Below are positions 3,020 through 24,758 of a stretch of 32,731 nucleotides of DNA, piece by piece. Source of the DNA: Syntrophorhabdaceae bacterium (GTDB lineage: Bacteria; Desulfobacterota; Syntrophorhabdia; Syntrophorhabdales; Syntrophorhabdaceae); NCBI GenBank assembly GCA_036504895.1, contig DASXUJ010000115.1, positions 1 to 32,731 of the forward strand, written 5' to 3'. Positions within the stretch are counted from its first letter, which is position 1, and every line of letters starts with the position of its first letter. The translations under genes and the position numbers were made by a program. Below the pieces are notes generated by a model. That model saw only the letters and a program-made list of their open reading frames with translations. It did not search any database and was not told the DNA's origin.

Positions 3020-4767
3020 TAGACGGACAGACCGAGGGTATCGCGAAAGAGGTCAGAAAGGTTTTCGGCGAAGATAGAATCGCCATCCAGGCAACAAGCG
3101 ACGGCATACCCACCCTCTGGGCCGAAGGGGCTACGGTGAGAGAAGTACTCAGCTACCTCCACCATGAAGTGAGCGACCCGTACCGGACACTCTACGATCT
3201 TACCGCCATAGATGAAAGAGAGCGAATCCATCGCGAGGGACAGCCCGAATCGGCCTTCACCGTCGTCTACCACCTTCTCTCCTATGGAAGAAAGGAAGAC
3301 GTTCGTGTGAAGATACCCGTGGGCGAGGAACTACCCCGCCCATCGAGTGTCGTCGATATATGGCCCTCGGCAAATTGGTACGAACGGGAGGTATGGGACC
3401 TCTTCGGCATCTCATTTGACGGCCACCCCGACTTGCGCCGTATCCTCATGCCCCCCGCCTGGAAGGGCCATCCTCTCAGAAAGGAACATCCGGCCAGGGC
3501 AACGGAGTTGGCGCCTTTTCAAATGACCGACGCTCAGGCAGCGGAAGCGGAACGCCTCATGTTTCACCCCGAAAGAGACTGGTCGGGCGAGATCGGCGGA
3601 GATAAGGAGATGATGGTACTCAACCTGGGTCCCCATCATCCGGGCACCCATGGAGTACTGAGGGTGATACTCGAGCTCGATGGAGAAGAGATTACCCGCA
3701 TGGCCCTCGATATAGGCTACCATCACCGCGGAGCGGAGAAGATGGGCGAGCGCCAGTCCTGGCACACCTATATCCCTTTTACGGATCGTATAGACTACCT
3801 GAGCGGCTCGATGAATAACTTCCCTTACGTCCTCGCCGTGGAACAGCTCGCAGGAATAGAAGTCCCGGAAAAGGCAATGGTGGTACGCGTCATGATCGCG
3901 GAGCTTTTCAGAATCGCGAGCCACCTCGTCTTCTACGGCACTTTTGCGCAGGACCTGGGGGCCATGTCGCCGGTATTTTTCACCTTTAATGACCGGGAGC
4001 GCCTTTTCCGAATCATCGAGGCGATCTGCGGGGGCAGAATGCATCCGGAGTGGTTTCGTATCGGGGGAGTGGCGGACGACCTGCCCGATGAGTGGGAAAA
4101 GCCGGTCCGGGAGTTCATTGCCTATATGCCGGCAAGACTGAGGGAATATGAGAAGCTGGTCATGAAAAACAGTATTTTTAAAAAACGCACCAAGGGCGTT
4201 GGCATCCTCTCTCTCCAGGATGCCATTGACTGGGGCGTGACAGGACCTAATTTACGGGCCTGCGGCCTCGCCTGGGATCTGCGAAAAACGAGACCCTACT
4301 CCGGTTATGACCGGTTCGATTTCGAAGTCCCTGTGGCGACTGAGGGCGACTGTTACAGCAGGGCACGCGTTCGGGTCGAAGAGATACGCCAGAGCCTCAG
4401 GATCATCGAACAGTGCGTGGATAACATGCCGTCGGGGCCTTATAAGTCGGAACACCCCCTTACGACGCCTCCCCGCAAAGAGCGGACCATGCACGATATC
4501 GAGACGCTGATCGCCCATTTTCTCAACGTGAGCTGGGGACCGGTCGTTCCGCCGGGGGAGGCGGCCTGCACCATAGAGGCATCAAAGGGAAACACCGGCT
4601 ATTACCTCATAAGCGACGGCAATACGATGTCATACCGCACCCGTATCCGGACCCCCTCATTCGCACACCTCCAGGTGGTGCCCATGGTGAGTAAGGGTCT
4701 CATGATCGCCGATCTGATCGCCATTTTGGGGAGTATCGATTATGTACTAGGAGACGTGGACCGCTAG
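3016..4767 (+). CDS. nuoCD: Fused NADH-quinone oxidoreductase subunits C/D (NuoCD)
   Basis: A single polypeptide of 583 residues joins the 30-kDa (NuoC) and 49-kDa (NuoD) subunits, as in E. coli. The NuoC part covers about residues 1-190, with the family signature [12 protein letters not shown] and the HPLRKEHP stretch. The NuoD part starts near residue 195 (GPHHPGTHG) and holds the quinone-site elements: that His-rich loop and the Tyr in DRIDYLSG. The open frame extends upstream to 2824, but ATG 3016 forms an ATGA overlap with the nuoB stop and matches the expected N-terminus, so the upstream part is nuoB read in another frame. nuoE follows after a TAGGAGG junction. Confidence 0.96.
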
Positions 4768-4778
4768 GAGGAATGATT

Positions 4779-5249
4779 ATGTTGACCGAGGAAGAGATAA
4801 GAGATCTACGGCGCATGCTCGATCTTACGGAAAACCCCGGGGCGGCCTCGGTAGAATCCTTGACGATCGTGCAGCGATCCCGGGGCTACATATCCGACGA
4901 AGCGATTCGGGATTTGGCGGCGTTTCTCGCCATGACACCGGAAGAGCTCGACGGTCTCGCCACGTTCTATCCCTTCATTTTCCGGAAACCCGTGGGCAGG
5001 CACCTCATACTCCTCTGTGATAGCGTGACCTGCTGGGCCCTCGGATACGACGAGGTACGGGCTCGCGTAAAAAGCCGCCTTGGCATAGGTTTCGGAGAGA
5101 CAACCGCTGACGGCAGGTTTACCCTTCTGCCCGCAAGCTGCATGGGCGCCTGCGACCATGCGCCGGCAGCCATGGTTGACGGGAAGCTCTATACGAATCT
5201 CGATGGAGAGGCCATGGAAAAGCTCCTCGATGCCTGCGTGGAGGACTAG
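4779..5249 (+). CDS. nuoE: NADH-quinone oxidoreductase subunit E (NuoE)
   Basis: The 24-kDa subunit of the NADH dehydrogenase module, with a thioredoxin-like fold and [2Fe-2S] cluster N1a. The 156-residue protein has the ligand pattern C-x4-C (Cys80, Cys85) and C-x3-C (Cys121, Cys125; SCMGACD). Two in-frame ATGs exist. AGGAGG at 4766-4771 is one base from ATG 4773 but seven bases from ATG 4779, so 4779 is preferred. Five bases separate it from nuoF. Length is normal for the family. Confidence 0.95.
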   Translation: MLTEEEIRDLRRMLDLTENPGAASVESLTIVQRSRGYISDEAIRDLAAFLAMTPEELDGLATFYPFIFRKPVGRHLILLCDSVTCWALGYDEVRARVKSRLGIGFGETTADGRFTLLPASCMGACDHAPAAMVDGKLYTNLDGEAMEKLLDACVED

Positions 5250-18678: not shown

Positions 18679-19236
18679 TTATCTTCCGGAGTATCTGAAA
18701 GTCTCGATGAGCGCCACTTTCCACTTGCCCTGCTCGAGGACCATCTGCAGGCGCGCCGGGCTCTCAGATTTCTTGTACTGGATCACTATTTCAGCCCTGC
18801 TCTTCTCGATAGGCCCCATGGTCCATTTGCTTTCTTCGAGCACCATGTTCGGGTTGAAGTTATCCATGTAACCGTCCCAATAGCCCTTGGCTACAGGTCC
18901 ACCGGAGGCAAAGTCGCGCTCGAGGGTTTCTGCGGAATAATCGGTGGATTCCGAGGACGACACCGATTTCTTTATCGCTTTCAGCGTATCGTTTATGATG
19001 AGGCTTTTGGAGCCGGCGGAAAGATTTTTCCAGATGTTTTTGTAGTCTTTCCCTTTCATGCTCTTGAAGAGGGCATCGGCAGAGTCGAGAATGGCATTCG
19101 CGTCCTGGGCTAACCCCTTCACCGGGGCAAAACAAAAAAATAACCCCAGCATCAGGGTCAGGCATATCAGCCCGACTCTTGTTACTGAAGGAAATGAGGC
19201 TGGGAGCGTAGACTCCCAGCCTTGCAATCTCGTCAA
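18679..19236 (-). CDS. Exported protein of unknown function, NTF2-like candidate
   Basis: 185 residues from TTG 19236. A hydrophobic signal segment (VGLICLTLMLGLFFCFAP) lies near residues 21-38, with possible cleavage around GLAQ-DA, followed by a soluble domain of about 140 residues. The pattern of N-terminal helices (ILDSADALFKSMKGKDY), then alternating strands ending with LQMVLEQGKWKVALIETF, resembles the NTF2/DUF4878-type fold, but I do not recognise a named family. The start is doubtful: no ribosome binding site is visible before the TTG, and a perfect hairpin (19198-19221) falls inside codons 6-13. The only in-frame ATG is within the signal segment. It starts nine bases after the end of the Gly/Ala-rich gene, so both may share a transcript. 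Confidence 0.6.
   Translation of the reverse strand: MTRLQGWESTLPASFPSVTRVGLICLTLMLGLFFCFAPVKGLAQDANAILDSADALFKSMKGKDYKNIWKNLSAGSKSLIINDTLKAIKKSVSSSESTDYSAETLERDFASGGPVAKGYWDGYMDNFNPNMVLEESKWTMGPIEKSRAEIVIQYKKSESPARLQMVLEQGKWKVALIETFRYSGR
19198..19221 (-). terminator. Perfect 9-bp hairpin after the Gly/Ala-rich gene
   Basis: GGCTGGGAG and CTCCCAGCC pair perfectly around a 6-nt loop, starting 21 bp after the stop of the Gly/Ala-rich gene. On the - strand it is followed by TCATTTCC, a poor T tract. It may be a partial terminator, an mRNA-stabilising 3' structure, or a control of translation of the next gene. Confidence 0.4.
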
Positions 19237-19242
19237 CAGATT

Positions 19243-19569
19243 TTAGTGGTGTGTCGGTGTAGTATGTGTCGGAATGAATCCGCCGCTGCCGCTGCCGCCG
19301 CCGCCCGTCGCTGCTGCTATGCCTGCCGCGACCGCTGCGACGCCTACGACTCCTACTGCGATTGTGCCCGCGCCTACGCCACCGGCCGCGCCCGCGCCCG
19401 ATGCTGCGCCCGCGCCACCTGCGGCGCCGGCAGCGCCTGCTCCGGCCTTGCTATCGGAAGCACCTGAAGCAGCCTGCGCAAACCCCAATGAAGGAATTAC
19501 TAAGGTGAAGGCAAACAAAACCAACACCGCCAGTCCAAGGAACTTACTCATCTTCGTAATCTTAAGCAT
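19243..19569 (-). CDS. Small exported Gly/Ala-rich protein, GfcA-like architecture
   Basis: 108 residues: a signal peptide (about 1-32, ending GFAQA), a Gly/Ala low-complexity stretch (about 38-67), a hydrophobic glycine-zipper-like segment (GTIAVGVVGVAAVAAG, near 69-84), a GGGGSGSGG linker and a His/Thr tail. The order of parts matches the E. coli group 4 capsule protein GfcA (YmcD) as I recall it, though that protein is Thr-rich. No sequence homology can be claimed. AGGAGG (19574-19579) precedes the ATG, and good promoters lie upstream, so strong expression is likely. It lies just downstream of the polysaccharide cluster on the same strand, which suggests a role in export or assembly of the glycan. 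The coding DNA is extremely GC-rich and triplet-repetitive in contrast to its A/T-rich upstream region. Confidence 0.7.
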   Translation of the reverse strand: MLKITKMSKFLGLAVLVLFAFTLVIPSLGFAQAASGASDSKAGAGAAGAAGGAGAASGAGAAGGVGAGTIAVGVVGVAAVAAGIAAATGGGGSGSGGFIPTHTTPTHH

Positions 19570-19825: not shown

Positions 19826-19854
19826 ACAATAAGCACTTGAAAATGCGTTGTCAA
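19826..19854 (-). promoter_or_regulatory. Second leftward promoter candidate at the end of the dehydrogenase gene
   Basis: On the - strand TTGACA (19849-19854), a 17-bp spacer and TATTGT (19826-19831, 4 of 6). The -35 overlaps the final codons of the dehydrogenase gene. A transcript would start near 19819, 250 bp before the Gly/Ala-rich gene, and run through A/T-rich sequence with no ORF of note. It is either a distal promoter of that gene or the promoter of a small RNA. No clear terminator was seen between 19819 and 19570. Confidence 0.45.
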
Positions 19855-21161
19855 GCCGGGTAAATCATCGGGTTGCCTTTTTTGACTATATTTCTCGTAT
19901 CCACGATGGGAATGCCCAAGGACCCGAAGTCGATCGTCCGATAGCGGTCATGAGGCGTCAGGATCACCACGAGGTCGAACTTCGAGGTAATCTCCGTCGA
20001 GGTCCTGCCCGCGAACTGCGGAAATTCTCGGTTTTGACGTATCGACGGAAAATAGGGGTCGTTATAGAAGACGAATGCCCCTTTGGCTTCCAGCTTGGCC
20101 ATCACGGCATAGGACGGAGATTCCCGGTCATCGTCCACGTCGGCTTTATAGGCAAGGCCGGCAACGAGAATCCTCGAACCCTTCACGGTCTTATTGATCT
20201 CATTTAACGCATGGGCAATCTTTCCCACCACGTAGTCGGGCATGGAACGGTTGATCTCCCCTGCGAGCTCGATGAAACGGGTCGCGAAGTCGTATTCCCG
20301 CGCCTTCCAGGTAAGGTAGAAAGGATCGATCGGGATGCAGTGGCCGCCCAGCCCCGGACCGGGATAAAAGGCATGGAAGCCGAAGGGTTTCGTCCCGGCC
20401 GCCTCGATCACTTCCCATATGTCGATGTCCATTTTATCGAAGAGCATCTTCATCTCGTTGACCAGGGCGATGTTGACCGCCCGGTAGATGTTCTCGAGGA
20501 GCTTCGTCGCCTCGGCCGCCCTGGTGGACGAAACCGGCACCGTCCGATCGACGACCGTGTCGTAAAGGGCCTTCGCCGCCTTAAGGCATGTGGCGCTGAA
20601 TCCCCCCACTACTTTCGGCGTGGTTCTCAAGTTGAAATGCTTATTCGCCGGGTCCTCCCGCTCGGGCGAAAAGGCGAGGCAAAAATCCTTTCCCGCCTTC
20701 AGTCCCGACTTCTCCAATATGGCCCTCATGTCCTCGTCCGTGGTCCCCGGATAGGTGGTCGATTCCAGGATGATAAGCTGCCCCTCCCGGAGGTACTGGC
20801 CGATCATCTTCGCCGTATTGAATACATAGGTCATATCGGGCTCGCGGTTTTTGTTGAGCGGAGTAGGCACGCAGATGAGAATGGCGTCCATACCCGTCAG
20901 CAACGAGAAATCTGAAGTGGCCTGAAATCCGTGTGATGCGGGTGATGCGTCTGGAGGCGGGGCGAAAAGGGGCGCGATATCTATATGCTTGATATAGCAT
21001 CTTTGTTCCCGGAGGGCAGTGACCTTTTTGTCGTCTATATCGAAGCCCGTTACCTGGAAGCCCGCTTTATGAAATTCAATGACAAGAGGCAGGCCCACGT
21101 ATCCCAGGCCGATTACCCCTATTTTTGCTTCGCGTGACGCGATCTTGTCGAGTAGCTCCAC
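19851..21161 (-). CDS. Nucleotide-sugar 6-dehydrogenase, WbpA/WecC type
   Basis: An NAD-dependent dehydrogenase that oxidises C6 of a UDP-N-acetylhexosamine to the uronic acid; 436 residues. The N-terminal Rossmann motif is IGVIGLGYVGLP, followed by GFDID. The catalytic Cys is in PGPGLGGHCIPIDPFY (near 270), and the C-terminal UDP-binding domain contains VAGLAYKADVDDDRESPS. The stretch CYIKHI and the length are typical of WbpA (UDP-GlcNAc dehydrogenase), but WecC (UDP-ManNAc) cannot be excluded, and a wecB gene is in the same cluster. TTG 21164 is possible, but GTG 21161 has GGAGG five bases ahead. It is the last gene of the cluster, 38 bp after the receiver gene. Confidence 0.9.
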   Translation of the reverse strand: MELLDKIASREAKIGVIGLGYVGLPLVIEFHKAGFQVTGFDIDDKKVTALREQRCYIKHIDIAPLFAPPPDASPASHGFQATSDFSLLTGMDAILICVPTPLNKNREPDMTYVFNTAKMIGQYLREGQLIILESTTYPGTTDEDMRAILEKSGLKAGKDFCLAFSPEREDPANKHFNLRTTPKVVGGFSATCLKAAKALYDTVVDRTVPVSSTRAAEATKLLENIYRAVNIALVNEMKMLFDKMDIDIWEVIEAAGTKPFGFHAFYPGPGLGGHCIPIDPFYLTWKAREYDFATRFIELAGEINRSMPDYVVGKIAHALNEINKTVKGSRILVAGLAYKADVDDDRESPSYAVMAKLEAKGAFVFYNDPYFPSIRQNREFPQFAGRTSTEITSKFDLVVILTPHDRYRTIDFGSLGIPIVDTRNIVKKGNPMIYPA

Positions 21162-21199
21162 CAAAACCTCCGTATGTTATTTCAAATTTAGTCCGATCT

Positions 21200-21730
21200 T
21201 TAGAACTGCTTCCACACAATCCCCAGGACGACGGCCAGGGCGAGGATCACGGGGATGATCGTCATGAGCCGCCTGAGCCGCTCTCCGCTCGCTTTCACGG
21301 AGCTTTCAAGCTGCCTCGTGTAGAGCGCCCGCTCCACCTTTATGAGCAGGTCCTCGACGTGCAGGGGCTTGGTCACGTAATCAAAGGCGCCCCCCTTGAT
21401 AGTCTCCACCGCGCCTTCCACGCTCGGAAATCCCGTGATGACCAGAAAAGGGACGGTGGCGTCTTTTGCCCGAAGCCGCTTCAGGAGCTCCTTGCCGTCG
21501 ATCTTCGGCATGGCGATATCGGAGATCACGCAGTCAAAAAGGCCGGGTTCGAATTTCGAAAGCGCCTCTTCGCCGTCTCTCGCCGTGCTGACCATATATC
21601 CCATGGTCCCGAAGTAATCGGAGAGAAGTTCCCTTATCTGCGGCTCGTCATCCACCACGAGGAGCCGTTCGCTCCGTCGCTCAGATTCTCTATACCCTTT
21701 GAACGATATTTCCTTCTTTTTTTCTCTCAT
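21200..21730 (-). CDS. Response-regulator receiver domain with C-terminal membrane anchor
   Basis: 176 residues. A basic N-terminal segment (1-20) is followed by a complete CheY-like receiver domain: acidic pair Asp27-Asp28, phosphoacceptor Asp71 (ISDIAMPKIDG), Thr99 (ITG) and Lys121 (TKP). Instead of a DNA-binding or enzymatic output domain it ends, after a short helical linker, in a single hydrophobic helix (about 155-174, RRLMTIIPVILALAVVLG...) with a short charged end, so it should be tail-anchored in the inner membrane with the receiver in the cytosol. The ATG overlaps the stop of the WecA-like gene (ATGA), so the two products are probably made together. No histidine kinase is in the window. 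It most likely acts by protein-protein contact, perhaps on the WecA-like enzyme. Confidence 0.88.
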   Translation of the reverse strand: MREKKKEISFKGYRESERRSERLLVVDDEPQIRELLSDYFGTMGYMVSTARDGEEALSKFEPGLFDCVISDIAMPKIDGKELLKRLRAKDATVPFLVITGFPSVEGAVETIKGGAFDYVTKPLHVEDLLIKVERALYTRQLESSVKASGERLRRLMTIIPVILALAVVLGIVWKQF

Positions 21731-23415
21731 ATCCCCGATCTCTTCTCCAGGATTGCCTTCTTGGCGCTCATTGCGCCGTGGTGCGCCTTCCTATACCGGA
21801 CTCCCTTCTGGTGGACCGGCTGCAAGTGCTCCTTCTTCTCCCTCTCTATCCAGTCAAGGGCCTTTATCATAGTTTCCCGAAGCTGCTCCGCACGCCGCAA
21901 GGTAAAGTTGTCAAGCTGCTCCTTCTTCGTATCCTTGATAAGGTGCAAGGTAGCCGGCATGAATTCCGAATCCACAAGAGGAACCTTCACAGTGAGCATG
22001 TAACCTTTGTCCACGTCCTGACGACGCCGGTAATATCCGCGCACCCAATGAAGGCTCCACGACTCCCTACGAGGCCCCGCGGCCTCCCAGGAGAGAGGAA
22101 ACCCCGACACCGGCTCCGACAGTTTAGCATTGTCGTGCCGTCTCTCGTGACCGACATAACTACTGCGCGTTTCCCCGGTCACTCCATATTCGGCCCCCAC
22201 ATACAGATCAGCCCTGTCAAACCTCAAAAACTCAAGAGCCTTGCCGACATTTTCCCAAAGTTCTTCCAGGTCCTGAGACTGGCTGATCTCGATCTGAAGC
22301 CCAAGAAAGCTCCGCCTGTTATGGCTGATCCCGGCAACATCGGTAATATCCCTAAACCACCCGAAGACCTTGTCCGATGCGAGATATTCGAAATACCCAA
22401 GCTTCCGGGTAAAAAGCAAGGCCGCCACACCCACGATGATGATAAAAAGCCCCGCCCGCTTGTCCTGGATATTGACCATGACCACCGCAAACAAGCAAAG
22501 AGCAACAGAGATGGCATAGATAAGCAGGACTGCCTTCGTCTTGGAAAATCCCATCTCCACGAGTTTATGGTGGATGTGGCTCTTGTCGGGCTGGAAGAGT
22601 TTCTTGCCTATCATAAAACGCCGCACTGGTGAGAGGATGGTATCGAATACAGGAACGCCCATGGCAATGAGCGGAATCAATACAATAGTGGCTGTTTGCG
22701 CCTTGGCAGAACTGAGAATGGCTAAACCCGCAATCGCATATCCAAGAAAATAACTCCCTCCGTCGCCCATAAATATCGAAGCTGGATTAAAGTTATAGCG
22801 GAGAAATCCGAGCACCGAACCCCCGAGCGCGGCAAAAAGTAGTGCCGAAAGGTAAAGACCCCGCCACACCAAAAGGACGGTGATTATTATACAGACAAAG
22901 AACGTAATGCCGCCCGCAAGACCGTCTAGGCCGTCCGTAAGATTAATGGCATTAATGAGGAGCACGAACCAGAATATAGTGAGGCAATAGCTGATGATAA
23001 AAGAATGAATCGTCCCTCCCAAAAAATAATATGTGTCCACCTGCATTCCCGATCCAAAGGCCACCGTGGCGGCAGCTATTTGCAGTAGGAGCTTGACTTT
23101 CGCGCCGAGACGATAAATATCATCCAGTAAGCCGACGGCGAAAATCAGACCACCGCCCGTAAAAAATCCGATCATCTTCGGGTTCCATGTAAATAGCTCC
23201 GACACCTGAGTTTTCAAAAATCCACACAAGAGCATCGTCAACCAGAAAGCTACGAATATAGCTATCCCTCCACTCCTCGGTATTGTCCCATAGTGCATCT
23301 TGCGCTCGTTGGGCTTGTCGACTGCACCGATCAATCTTCCCAACTTGCCAGCAAGGGGGGCGGCGATCAGGGAGATTAAAAGAGCGATAAAAAAAGTAGC
23401 GATGACTGTTGTCAT
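21727..23415 (-). CDS. WecA/MraY-type undecaprenyl-phosphate glycosylphosphotransferase with C-terminal extension
   Basis: Transfers a HexNAc-1-phosphate from a UDP-sugar to undecaprenyl phosphate at the inner membrane, starting a glycan repeat unit. 562 residues. About residues 1-345 form the polytopic catalytic part with the family motifs GLLDDIYRLGAK (Asp pair), NAINLTDGLDGLAGG, IFMGDGGSYFLGY and the HIHHKL loop typical of the WecA branch. Residues 346-562 are an added cytosolic domain (starting near FRDITDVAG, then LGLQIEISQSQDLEELWENVGKAL...), with a mixed helix/strand pattern that could be GAF-like; I do not recognise it. Usual WecA length is 340-370. The start is ATG 23415 without a clear ribosome binding site. 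It overlaps the receiver gene downstream and follows wecB by 12 bp. Confidence 0.9.
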   Translation of the reverse strand: MTTVIATFFIALLISLIAAPLAGKLGRLIGAVDKPNERKMHYGTIPRSGGIAIFVAFWLTMLLCGFLKTQVSELFTWNPKMIGFFTGGGLIFAVGLLDDIYRLGAKVKLLLQIAAATVAFGSGMQVDTYYFLGGTIHSFIISYCLTIFWFVLLINAINLTDGLDGLAGGITFFVCIIITVLLVWRGLYLSALLFAALGGSVLGFLRYNFNPASIFMGDGGSYFLGYAIAGLAILSSAKAQTATIVLIPLIAMGVPVFDTILSPVRRFMIGKKLFQPDKSHIHHKLVEMGFSKTKAVLLIYAISVALCLFAVVMVNIQDKRAGLFIIIVGVAALLFTRKLGYFEYLASDKVFGWFRDITDVAGISHNRRSFLGLQIEISQSQDLEELWENVGKALEFLRFDRADLYVGAEYGVTGETRSSYVGHERRHDNAKLSEPVSGFPLSWEAAGPRRESWSLHWVRGYYRRRQDVDKGYMLTVKVPLVDSEFMPATLHLIKDTKKEQLDNFTLRRAEQLRETMIKALDWIEREKKEHLQPVHQKGVRYRKAHHGAMSAKKAILEKRSGI

Positions 23416-23427
23416 AGTGAACCCACG

Positions 23428-24534
23428 TTAAACATCACGCGTTAGCTTCAATAGTATGTCGACTATTCTTTCTGAAGCACAGCCGTCCCACAAAGCCGGA
23501 ACGGTCCCCCGCTTGCCACCATTCTTCTGGAAAGTACGAAAAGCGCGTAATATATCGCCCTTGCCGGTGCCAATAAGGGTGTTTGTCCCCTCATCTATAG
23601 TGATCGGTCTTTCGGTATTTTCACGAACCGTAAAACATGGTACGCCAAGAGCGGTGGTCTCTTCTTGGAGACCTCCACTGTCGGTGAGCACGAAATTCGC
23701 GTCCTTCCAGAGGAACAACGACTCCTTGAACCCCAGTGGAGAGAGTGGGGTCACATTAGGGCCGAGTTTTAGGTTGTGGATGTCAAGCTGTTTACGCGTA
23801 CGAGGGTGCACCGGGAAGAGAATAGGCATTTCATCAGATATTTGGTTCAAAGCCTCAATTATTTCACCAAAAACCCTCGGATCATCGACATTAGAGGGCC
23901 GGTGAAGAGTTAGAAAGGCATATTCGTTGAGTTTATCCTTTATTCTCGAGGTCGGAAAAATAGATGAATCCGAAGCTTTCAACTTTCGTATCTGGTAGTA
24001 AAGGTTATCTACCATCACGTGACCAACAAAAAAAATATCTTTCTTCTGTTTGCCTTCCTTGAGGAGATTATTGATGGCGCTCTTTTCCGTGACGAAGAAA
24101 TAGTTGCTGACAGAATCGGTTACAATCCTGTTGATCTCCTCGGGCATTCCCATGTCGCCGCTTCTGAGGCCAGCCTCGACGTGGGCGACGCGTATCATAT
24201 CTTTCTTTGCGACAATGCTGCACGCTAGTGTCGAATTGACGTCGCCTACAACAATGACTATGTCAGGACGGTCCTTTTCACAGACCTTTTCAAACCCTAT
24301 CATTATCCGGGCAGTCTGGTCCGCATGGGTCCCCGAACCTGCATTAAGATAATAGTCCGGTCTTGGAATCTCTAGGTCCTCGAAGAATGCCTCGGACATG
24401 TCGTAATCATAATGTTGGCCAGTATGAACAATTTTCCAGCGCAGCCTGTTAGTTCGCTGGCTGACCAGCGCCCGAATTATCGGGGCTATTTTCACGAAAT
24501 TGGGTCGTGCTCCAGCTACTAGAAAGATTTTCAT
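23428..24534 (-). CDS. wecB: UDP-N-acetylglucosamine 2-epimerase (non-hydrolysing)
   Basis: Interconverts UDP-GlcNAc and UDP-ManNAc. 368 residues with the family signatures GARPNFVKIAPII, HTGQHYDYDMS, HVEAGLRSGDMGMPEEINR, LTLHRPSNVDD, PVHPRTRKQL and LTDSGGLQEETTALGVP. An in-frame GTG at 24582 would add 16 basic residues; ATG 24534 matches the usual N-terminus (MKIFLVAGARPN) and has AGGCGG six bases ahead. Together with the nearby dehydrogenase it could provide UDP-ManNAcA. A 224-bp gap, unusually large for this cluster, lies upstream. Confidence 0.93.
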   Translation of the reverse strand: MKIFLVAGARPNFVKIAPIIRALVSQRTNRLRWKIVHTGQHYDYDMSEAFFEDLEIPRPDYYLNAGSGTHADQTARIMIGFEKVCEKDRPDIVIVVGDVNSTLACSIVAKKDMIRVAHVEAGLRSGDMGMPEEINRIVTDSVSNYFFVTEKSAINNLLKEGKQKKDIFFVGHVMVDNLYYQIRKLKASDSSIFPTSRIKDKLNEYAFLTLHRPSNVDDPRVFGEIIEALNQISDEMPILFPVHPRTRKQLDIHNLKLGPNVTPLSPLGFKESLFLWKDANFVLTDSGGLQEETTALGVPCFTVRENTERPITIDEGTNTLIGTGKGDILRAFRTFQKNGGKRGTVPALWDGCASERIVDILLKLTRDV

Positions 24535-24758
24535 GATATACCGCCTACGGATTCGACTTGATTGGCGTGAGGTCTTGCTCACGAATTAGAGCAGAGCATG
24601 TGCAGGGTGGGCCGCTTTCGGTCGAAGTTGAGAGCTAATTTTGATCAACCCCTCTTTCAGCTTGACATAAAGAGCCTCATTCCCCGTGCTGCTCCTCAAT
24701 TGGAAAAAATCATCCTCGTTTCAGTCTCAAAATATAAGTTAGAATTGAAACCGGAAGA
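24535..24758 (-). other. Gap between GT2 and wecB with a hairpin, no gene seen
   Basis: A/T-rich 224-bp stretch. The only clear structure is CGTGAG-(6 nt)-CTCACG (24566-24583), a perfect 6-bp hairpin about 30 bp before the wecB ATG without a T tract. No promoter with two good hexamers was found on the - strand, and a + strand ORF through here runs antisense to the GT2 gene and is not gene-like. Confidence 0.4.

Follow-up and report, generated by a model that had tools for sequence, protein, structure and literature searches.

What decides the moment at which bacteria commit their shared undecaprenyl phosphate to making a polymer is largely an open question. One locus that bears on it lies in a 32,731-nucleotide stretch of DNA from a Syntrophorhabdaceae bacterium (hereafter the window, meaning the whole stretch), in which a gene for a receiver ending in a membrane helix overlaps the gene for a WecA-like enzyme. 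Receivers are bacterial on/off signalling modules that usually float free. What, then, might one that is fixed in the membrane do beside an enzyme that starts a glycan?

The receiver and its membrane tail

The receiver gene and its parts are laid out as follows.

21200..21730, minus strand: gene for the tail-anchored receiver, 176 aa (open reading frame, Pfam Response_reg, homologues with the same tail)
21335..21661, minus strand: receiver domain, residues 24-132, with the codon of the acceptor D71 at 21518-21520 (Pfam and invariant D27, D28, D71, T99 and K121)
21206..21358, minus strand: continuous helix, residues 125-175, made up of receiver helix alpha5, linker and membrane segment (AlphaFold2)
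21212..21268, minus strand: C-terminal transmembrane segment, residues 155-173 (Kyte-Doolittle 2.73; tail profile 1.1e-19)

The first-pass annotation had described a complete, phosphorylatable receiver in which a C-terminal transmembrane helix replaces the output domain, and both points were borne out. Response_reg (PF00072) is the sole Pfam domain of the protein (residues 24-132, E = 3e-28), and the residues expected of that family, namely the acidic pair (D27 and D28), the acceptor Asp (D71), the Thr/Ser position (T99) and the Lys (K121), accompany the receiver fold and do not vary among the six aligned family members. The hydrophobic segment (Kyte-Doolittle 2.73 over residues 155-173) lies at the very end of the protein. 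Modelled as a single chain by AlphaFold2 with an input of 20 rows, the receiver reached a mean pLDDT of 88 and showed one unbroken helix over residues 125-175; thus, receiver helix alpha5 is predicted to run on into the membrane segment. None of nine other short receivers retrieved by similarity carries such a tail, and a contig scan with the window receiver as query returned ordinary receivers only.

The nearest receivers in both sequence and fold are of the NtrC/DctD type with linker helices, and among the closest solved structures are the DctD receiver with its linker and NtrC1 in phosphorylated form. The AAA+ and DNA-binding domains of NtrC-family regulators are absent from the window receiver according to Pfam, which found Response_reg alone.

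A family of tail-anchored receivers

To look for the same tail elsewhere, we used a profile of the last ~43 residues, composed of six rows of which the window receiver is one; with the window among its own rows, it scores the window receiver at 1.1e-19. The tail motif, G-x2-W...ISIPxWLxLG following the receiver domain, is present and homologous in at least 13 other proteins. Across 395 genomes of the phylum to which the window belongs, the profile picked out nine credible tail-anchored receivers; one further member, G012, came from the window's family, giving about ten in some 400 sampled genomes of the phylum, and there were four in 198 Nitrospirota genomes. There were no credible members in 149 Acidobacteriota genomes or in 261 Myxococcota genomes, where the single weak match (G956) was rejected because its open reading frame shows no receiver features and resembles a protein with several membrane passes. 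Also left uncounted were a 480-aa frame with other transmembrane segments in G312 and matches in G010, G026, G019 and one in G006 that align only to the receiver side of the tail model. Receivers of ~200 aa at L158, L166, L167, L168 and L169 were rejected as candidates for want of a tail.

In the family alignments, P160, W162 and G166 of the tail are conserved, and the motif is conserved across two phyla. The window tail keeps P160 and has lost the conserved W and G. The homologue in G001 is 53% identical to the window receiver over residues 20-174. A receiver domain followed by the homologous tail places the window receiver in a small and as yet unnamed family of such tail-anchored proteins. 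At one locus (L143), a 109-nt piece over the receiver tail (2034-2142) recurs 2.7 kb downstream (4725-4833) with 98% identity, the result of a rearrangement or an assembly artefact.

These alignments bear on the possibility that the protein is a decaying NtrC-type regulator that lost its output domain and bears an accidental hydrophobic tail. Its receiver is indeed closest to those of the NtrC family. However, every active-site residue is intact, and the tail is homologous across two phyla with its P, W and G positions kept. Because the same motif recurs by homology in so many other proteins, the window's tail is not a product of chance; chance or decay as its origin is contradicted by the family alignment and was rejected, and we give the decay reading next to no credence.

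The genes around family members are varied. In four Nitrospirota genomes, the order is FtsK-LolA-receiver (L199:4885-8529, also L200, L201 and L202), as annotated by Pfam for L199 and suggested by similar gene sizes for the other three. In G012, an ABC-2 exporter precedes the receiver and an AhpC/TSA gene follows it; in G001, which belongs to the window's genus, the gene ahead of the receiver is a DUF116 gene whose product has predicted membrane segments (L139:1094-2520). A PMT_2 gene and a HAD phosphatase lie near the receiver of G345, and cyclase-TPR, prepilin peptidase and histidine kinase genes near that of G326; reading the G304 locus yielded no identification of its neighbors. G078 and G416 each encode two tail-anchored receivers in tandem (L188:7214-8334 and L189:6738-7875), one canonical and the other without the acceptor Asp. 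A CapD-like membrane dehydratase precedes the pair in G416, and the preceding piece in G078 matches the same family.

Such tandems would fit a paired relay, and single-domain receivers can work in phosphorelays (PMC12802240). The window receiver might accordingly serve as a phosphate sink or phosphorelay intermediate that is confined to the membrane and tunes a histidine kinase there, with no direct action on an enzyme. Against this, neither the list of open reading frames nor Pfam on eight proteins revealed a histidine kinase or Hpt gene in the window, and the tight gene coupling is to enzymes. We consider a sink or relay role improbable.

Linkage to glycan-initiating enzymes

The genes flanking the window receiver are all on the same strand.

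23428..24582, minus strand: UDP-GlcNAc 2-epimerase (wecB-like), same operon (PF02350)
21727..23415, minus strand: WecA-like polytopic polyprenol-phosphate sugar-1-phosphate transferase, 562 aa (PF00953, 4.9e-37)
21730..22395, minus strand: C-terminal cytoplasmic extension of the WecA-like enzyme, residues 341-562, tentatively GAF-like (conservation, alignment)
21727..21730, minus strand: ATGA stop/start overlap of the WecA-like gene and the receiver gene (same junction in G381)
19851..21164, minus strand: UDP-sugar dehydrogenase, next gene downstream of the receiver (PF03721/PF00984/PF03720)

The order on the minus strand is therefore wecB-like epimerase, WecA-like enzyme, receiver and UDP-sugar dehydrogenase, with glycosyltransferases farther upstream. 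As previously proposed, the receiver's start codon (ATG, 21728-21730) overlaps the stop codon of the WecA-like gene, sharing an ATGA with the TGA of this PF00953 gene. The motifs LLDDIYRLG, NLTDGLDGLAGG, MGDGGSYF and HIHHKL supply the DD, NxxxDGLDGL, GDGGS and HIHH signatures which, with the Glycos_transf_4 domain, define WecA/PNPT polytopic transferases. The top NCBIfam model, ECA_wecA (TIGR02380), scores 128 bits, under its curated cut-off of 326; by this score, the enzyme is not an E. coli-type WecA equivalog.

Past its membrane core, the enzyme continues for ~220 aa, an extension present in 16 of the 395 genomes of the phylum. A GAF_3 match to it is weak (E = 0.17, in one of 13 members), a PDB profile search gave no match, and the extension folded alone from a single sequence reached a pLDDT of 35; its pattern is tentatively GAF-like. 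Since the neighbors of extended WecA genes include O-antigen ligase, YjbH and polysaccharide-export genes, the extended proteins are probably exopolysaccharide-initiating enzymes. Relatives at L160 to L164 carry a different WecA-like protein of ~545 aa, in which 14-17 hydrophobic segments replace the cytoplasmic extension. Two further proteins are encoded in the window: a putative secreted protein of 185 aa (18679-19236, minus strand), which matches no Pfam family and has a homologue (114 bits) near an extended WecA gene at L157:10990-11493, and, near the polysaccharide cluster, a small Ala/Gly-rich low-complexity protein with a signal-peptide-like start (19243-19569, minus strand).

In G381, a WecA-like enzyme with the same C-terminal extension is followed by a tail-anchored receiver, likewise through an ATGA junction. 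In G112 (L140:3528-5292), a monotopic transferase with PF02397 and a sub-threshold GGDEF-like N-terminus is followed first by a 52-aa open reading frame and next by a tail-anchored receiver at a TAATG junction. Glycan-initiating enzymes thus recur in three unrelated settings, two of them WecA-like with identical junctions and one monotopic. With the window left out, linkage to an initiating transferase occurs at two of nine independent loci (p about 4e-4), a rough value that assumes, rather than measures, a background of 12 initiating-transferase genes per 3500 and counts G112 despite the small open reading frame between its transferase and receiver.

Phylogenies separated the two wecA-receiver pairs. 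The window receiver groups with those of G001 and G012 (96/93), neither of which adjoins WecA, and the window WecA falls among lineages without a receiver, apart from the G381 WecA (100/100), so that the two enzymes lie on different branches and are not sisters. On the simplest reading of these trees, such a receiver came to lie beside WecA-like genes on two or more occasions; descent from a common ancestor, followed by many losses, could also have produced the pattern.

Most tail-anchored receivers, the nearest relatives in G001 and G012 included, are not next to WecA-like genes, and most WecA homologues sharing the extension have no tail-anchored receiver as neighbor. Since the neighbors range from the CapD-like dehydratase and FtsK-LolA to the ABC-2 exporter and DUF116, the receiver cannot be regarded as a dedicated partner of WecA. 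The first-pass annotation had envisaged a shared receiver-WecA system and a search of the phylum for more such pairs. What survives is a conserved type of tail-anchored receiver with homologues in the phylum, the repeated ATGA junction in G381, the transferase link in G112 and a precedent in Myxococcus; the dedicated pairing does not, as the neighbors are mostly other genes.

The main rival to control of the WecA-like enzyme follows from this variety: the protein may be a general-purpose membrane-tethered receiver with another envelope partner (e.g., a membrane kinase, flippase, polymerase or export protein), which adjoins wecA through a shared regulated operon. The range of family neighbors (FtsK-LolA, ABC-2 exporter, DUF116, PMT_2, and cyclase-TPR with a histidine kinase nearby) and the position of the nearest relatives away from WecA favor it, whereas the recurrence of initiating transferases in three settings, two with the same 4-nt overlap, does not. 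We grant this alternative a substantial minority share of the probability; it would be compatible with WecA control if the tail were a common adaptor.

Possible control of the enzyme and comparison with known systems

The explanation that we favor, tentatively and at a little below an even chance, is membrane-tethered phospho-control of the adjacent WecA-like enzyme. The receiver would be co-translated with the polyprenol-phosphate glycosyl-1-phosphate transferase of an exopolysaccharide operon, and a histidine kinase would phosphorylate D71. Phosphorylation would alter the alpha4-beta5-alpha5 face and dimerization, as in NtrC/DctD-type receivers, and the continuous helix would relay the change into an altered contact with the membrane core or the extra cytoplasmic domain of the enzyme, setting the rate of the first, undecaprenyl phosphate-consuming step of polymer synthesis. 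A signal may in this way start or stop polymer synthesis at the membrane itself.

Several observations point toward phospho-control: the ATGA overlap in two genomes with non-sister WecAs, with G112 as a third link; the linkage statistic given above; the conservation of the tail motif across two phyla; the DctD and NtrC1 receivers among the nearest solved structures; and the extra cytoplasmic domains of the linked enzymes, possibly a GAF-like C-terminus in the two WecAs and a weak GGDEF-like N-terminus in G112. By analogy, the EpsW~P/EpsZ pair of Myxococcus also speaks for it. Counted against it are the majority of family members that are not beside initiating transferases, the majority of same-extension WecAs that have no receiver neighbor, the loss of the conserved W and G from the window tail, and the nature of the precedent itself, a soluble receiver with a monotopic enzyme. 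A broader proposal, which we regard as rather unlikely, is that the whole family is an in-membrane phospho-switch, its conserved IPxWLxLG helix acting as the effector in place of a soluble output domain; by docking, the helix would control both superfamilies of polyprenol-phosphate transferases and, in other lineages, other envelope machines.

If phospho-control is correct, a tethered receiver translated together with a WecA-type enzyme would carry receiver control over to the other transferase superfamily, and receivers could signal by way of a membrane helix, with no need for a DNA-binding or enzymatic domain. As far as we found, only one system is reported to have its first enzyme directly controlled by a receiver (PMC12802240). 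Our literature search, incomplete in coverage, found no description of tail-anchored receivers. Receiver control of an initiating transferase is already known; neither a conserved membrane tail nor a WecA-type partner turned up in the literature that we could search.

In that one system, from Myxococcus xanthus, the single-domain regulator EpsW~P activates the initiating transferase EpsZ post-translationally, as backed by proximity labelling and heterologous activity, with a 2:2 complex modelled (PMC12802240). The resemblance lies in a receiver without an output domain, a polysaccharide locus, proposed post-translational control and a partner enzyme that starts a polymer on undecaprenyl phosphate; on this analogy, the likeliest role for the window receiver, held at the membrane by its tail, would be phospho-dependent regulation of the enzyme encoded next to it. 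However, EpsW is described as single-domain and without a membrane tail, and its partner, EpsZ, belongs to the large monotopic transferases; the window receiver, by contrast, adds a C-terminal transmembrane helix to its receiver domain and its partner is a polytopic PF00953 WecA-type enzyme. Monotopic transferases fused to regulatory domains, receivers included (mentioned in PMC12802240 via its reference 13), likewise couple receiver domains to initiating transferases, but in the window the two are separate proteins, a membrane-anchored receiver and a polytopic enzyme. The NtrC/DctD-type receivers with a linker helix (1qkk and 1zy2) come nearest in sequence and fold, and their alpha5 likewise continues into a helical linker; unlike them, the window receiver has no AAA+ or DNA-binding domain, and its linker goes straight into the membrane.
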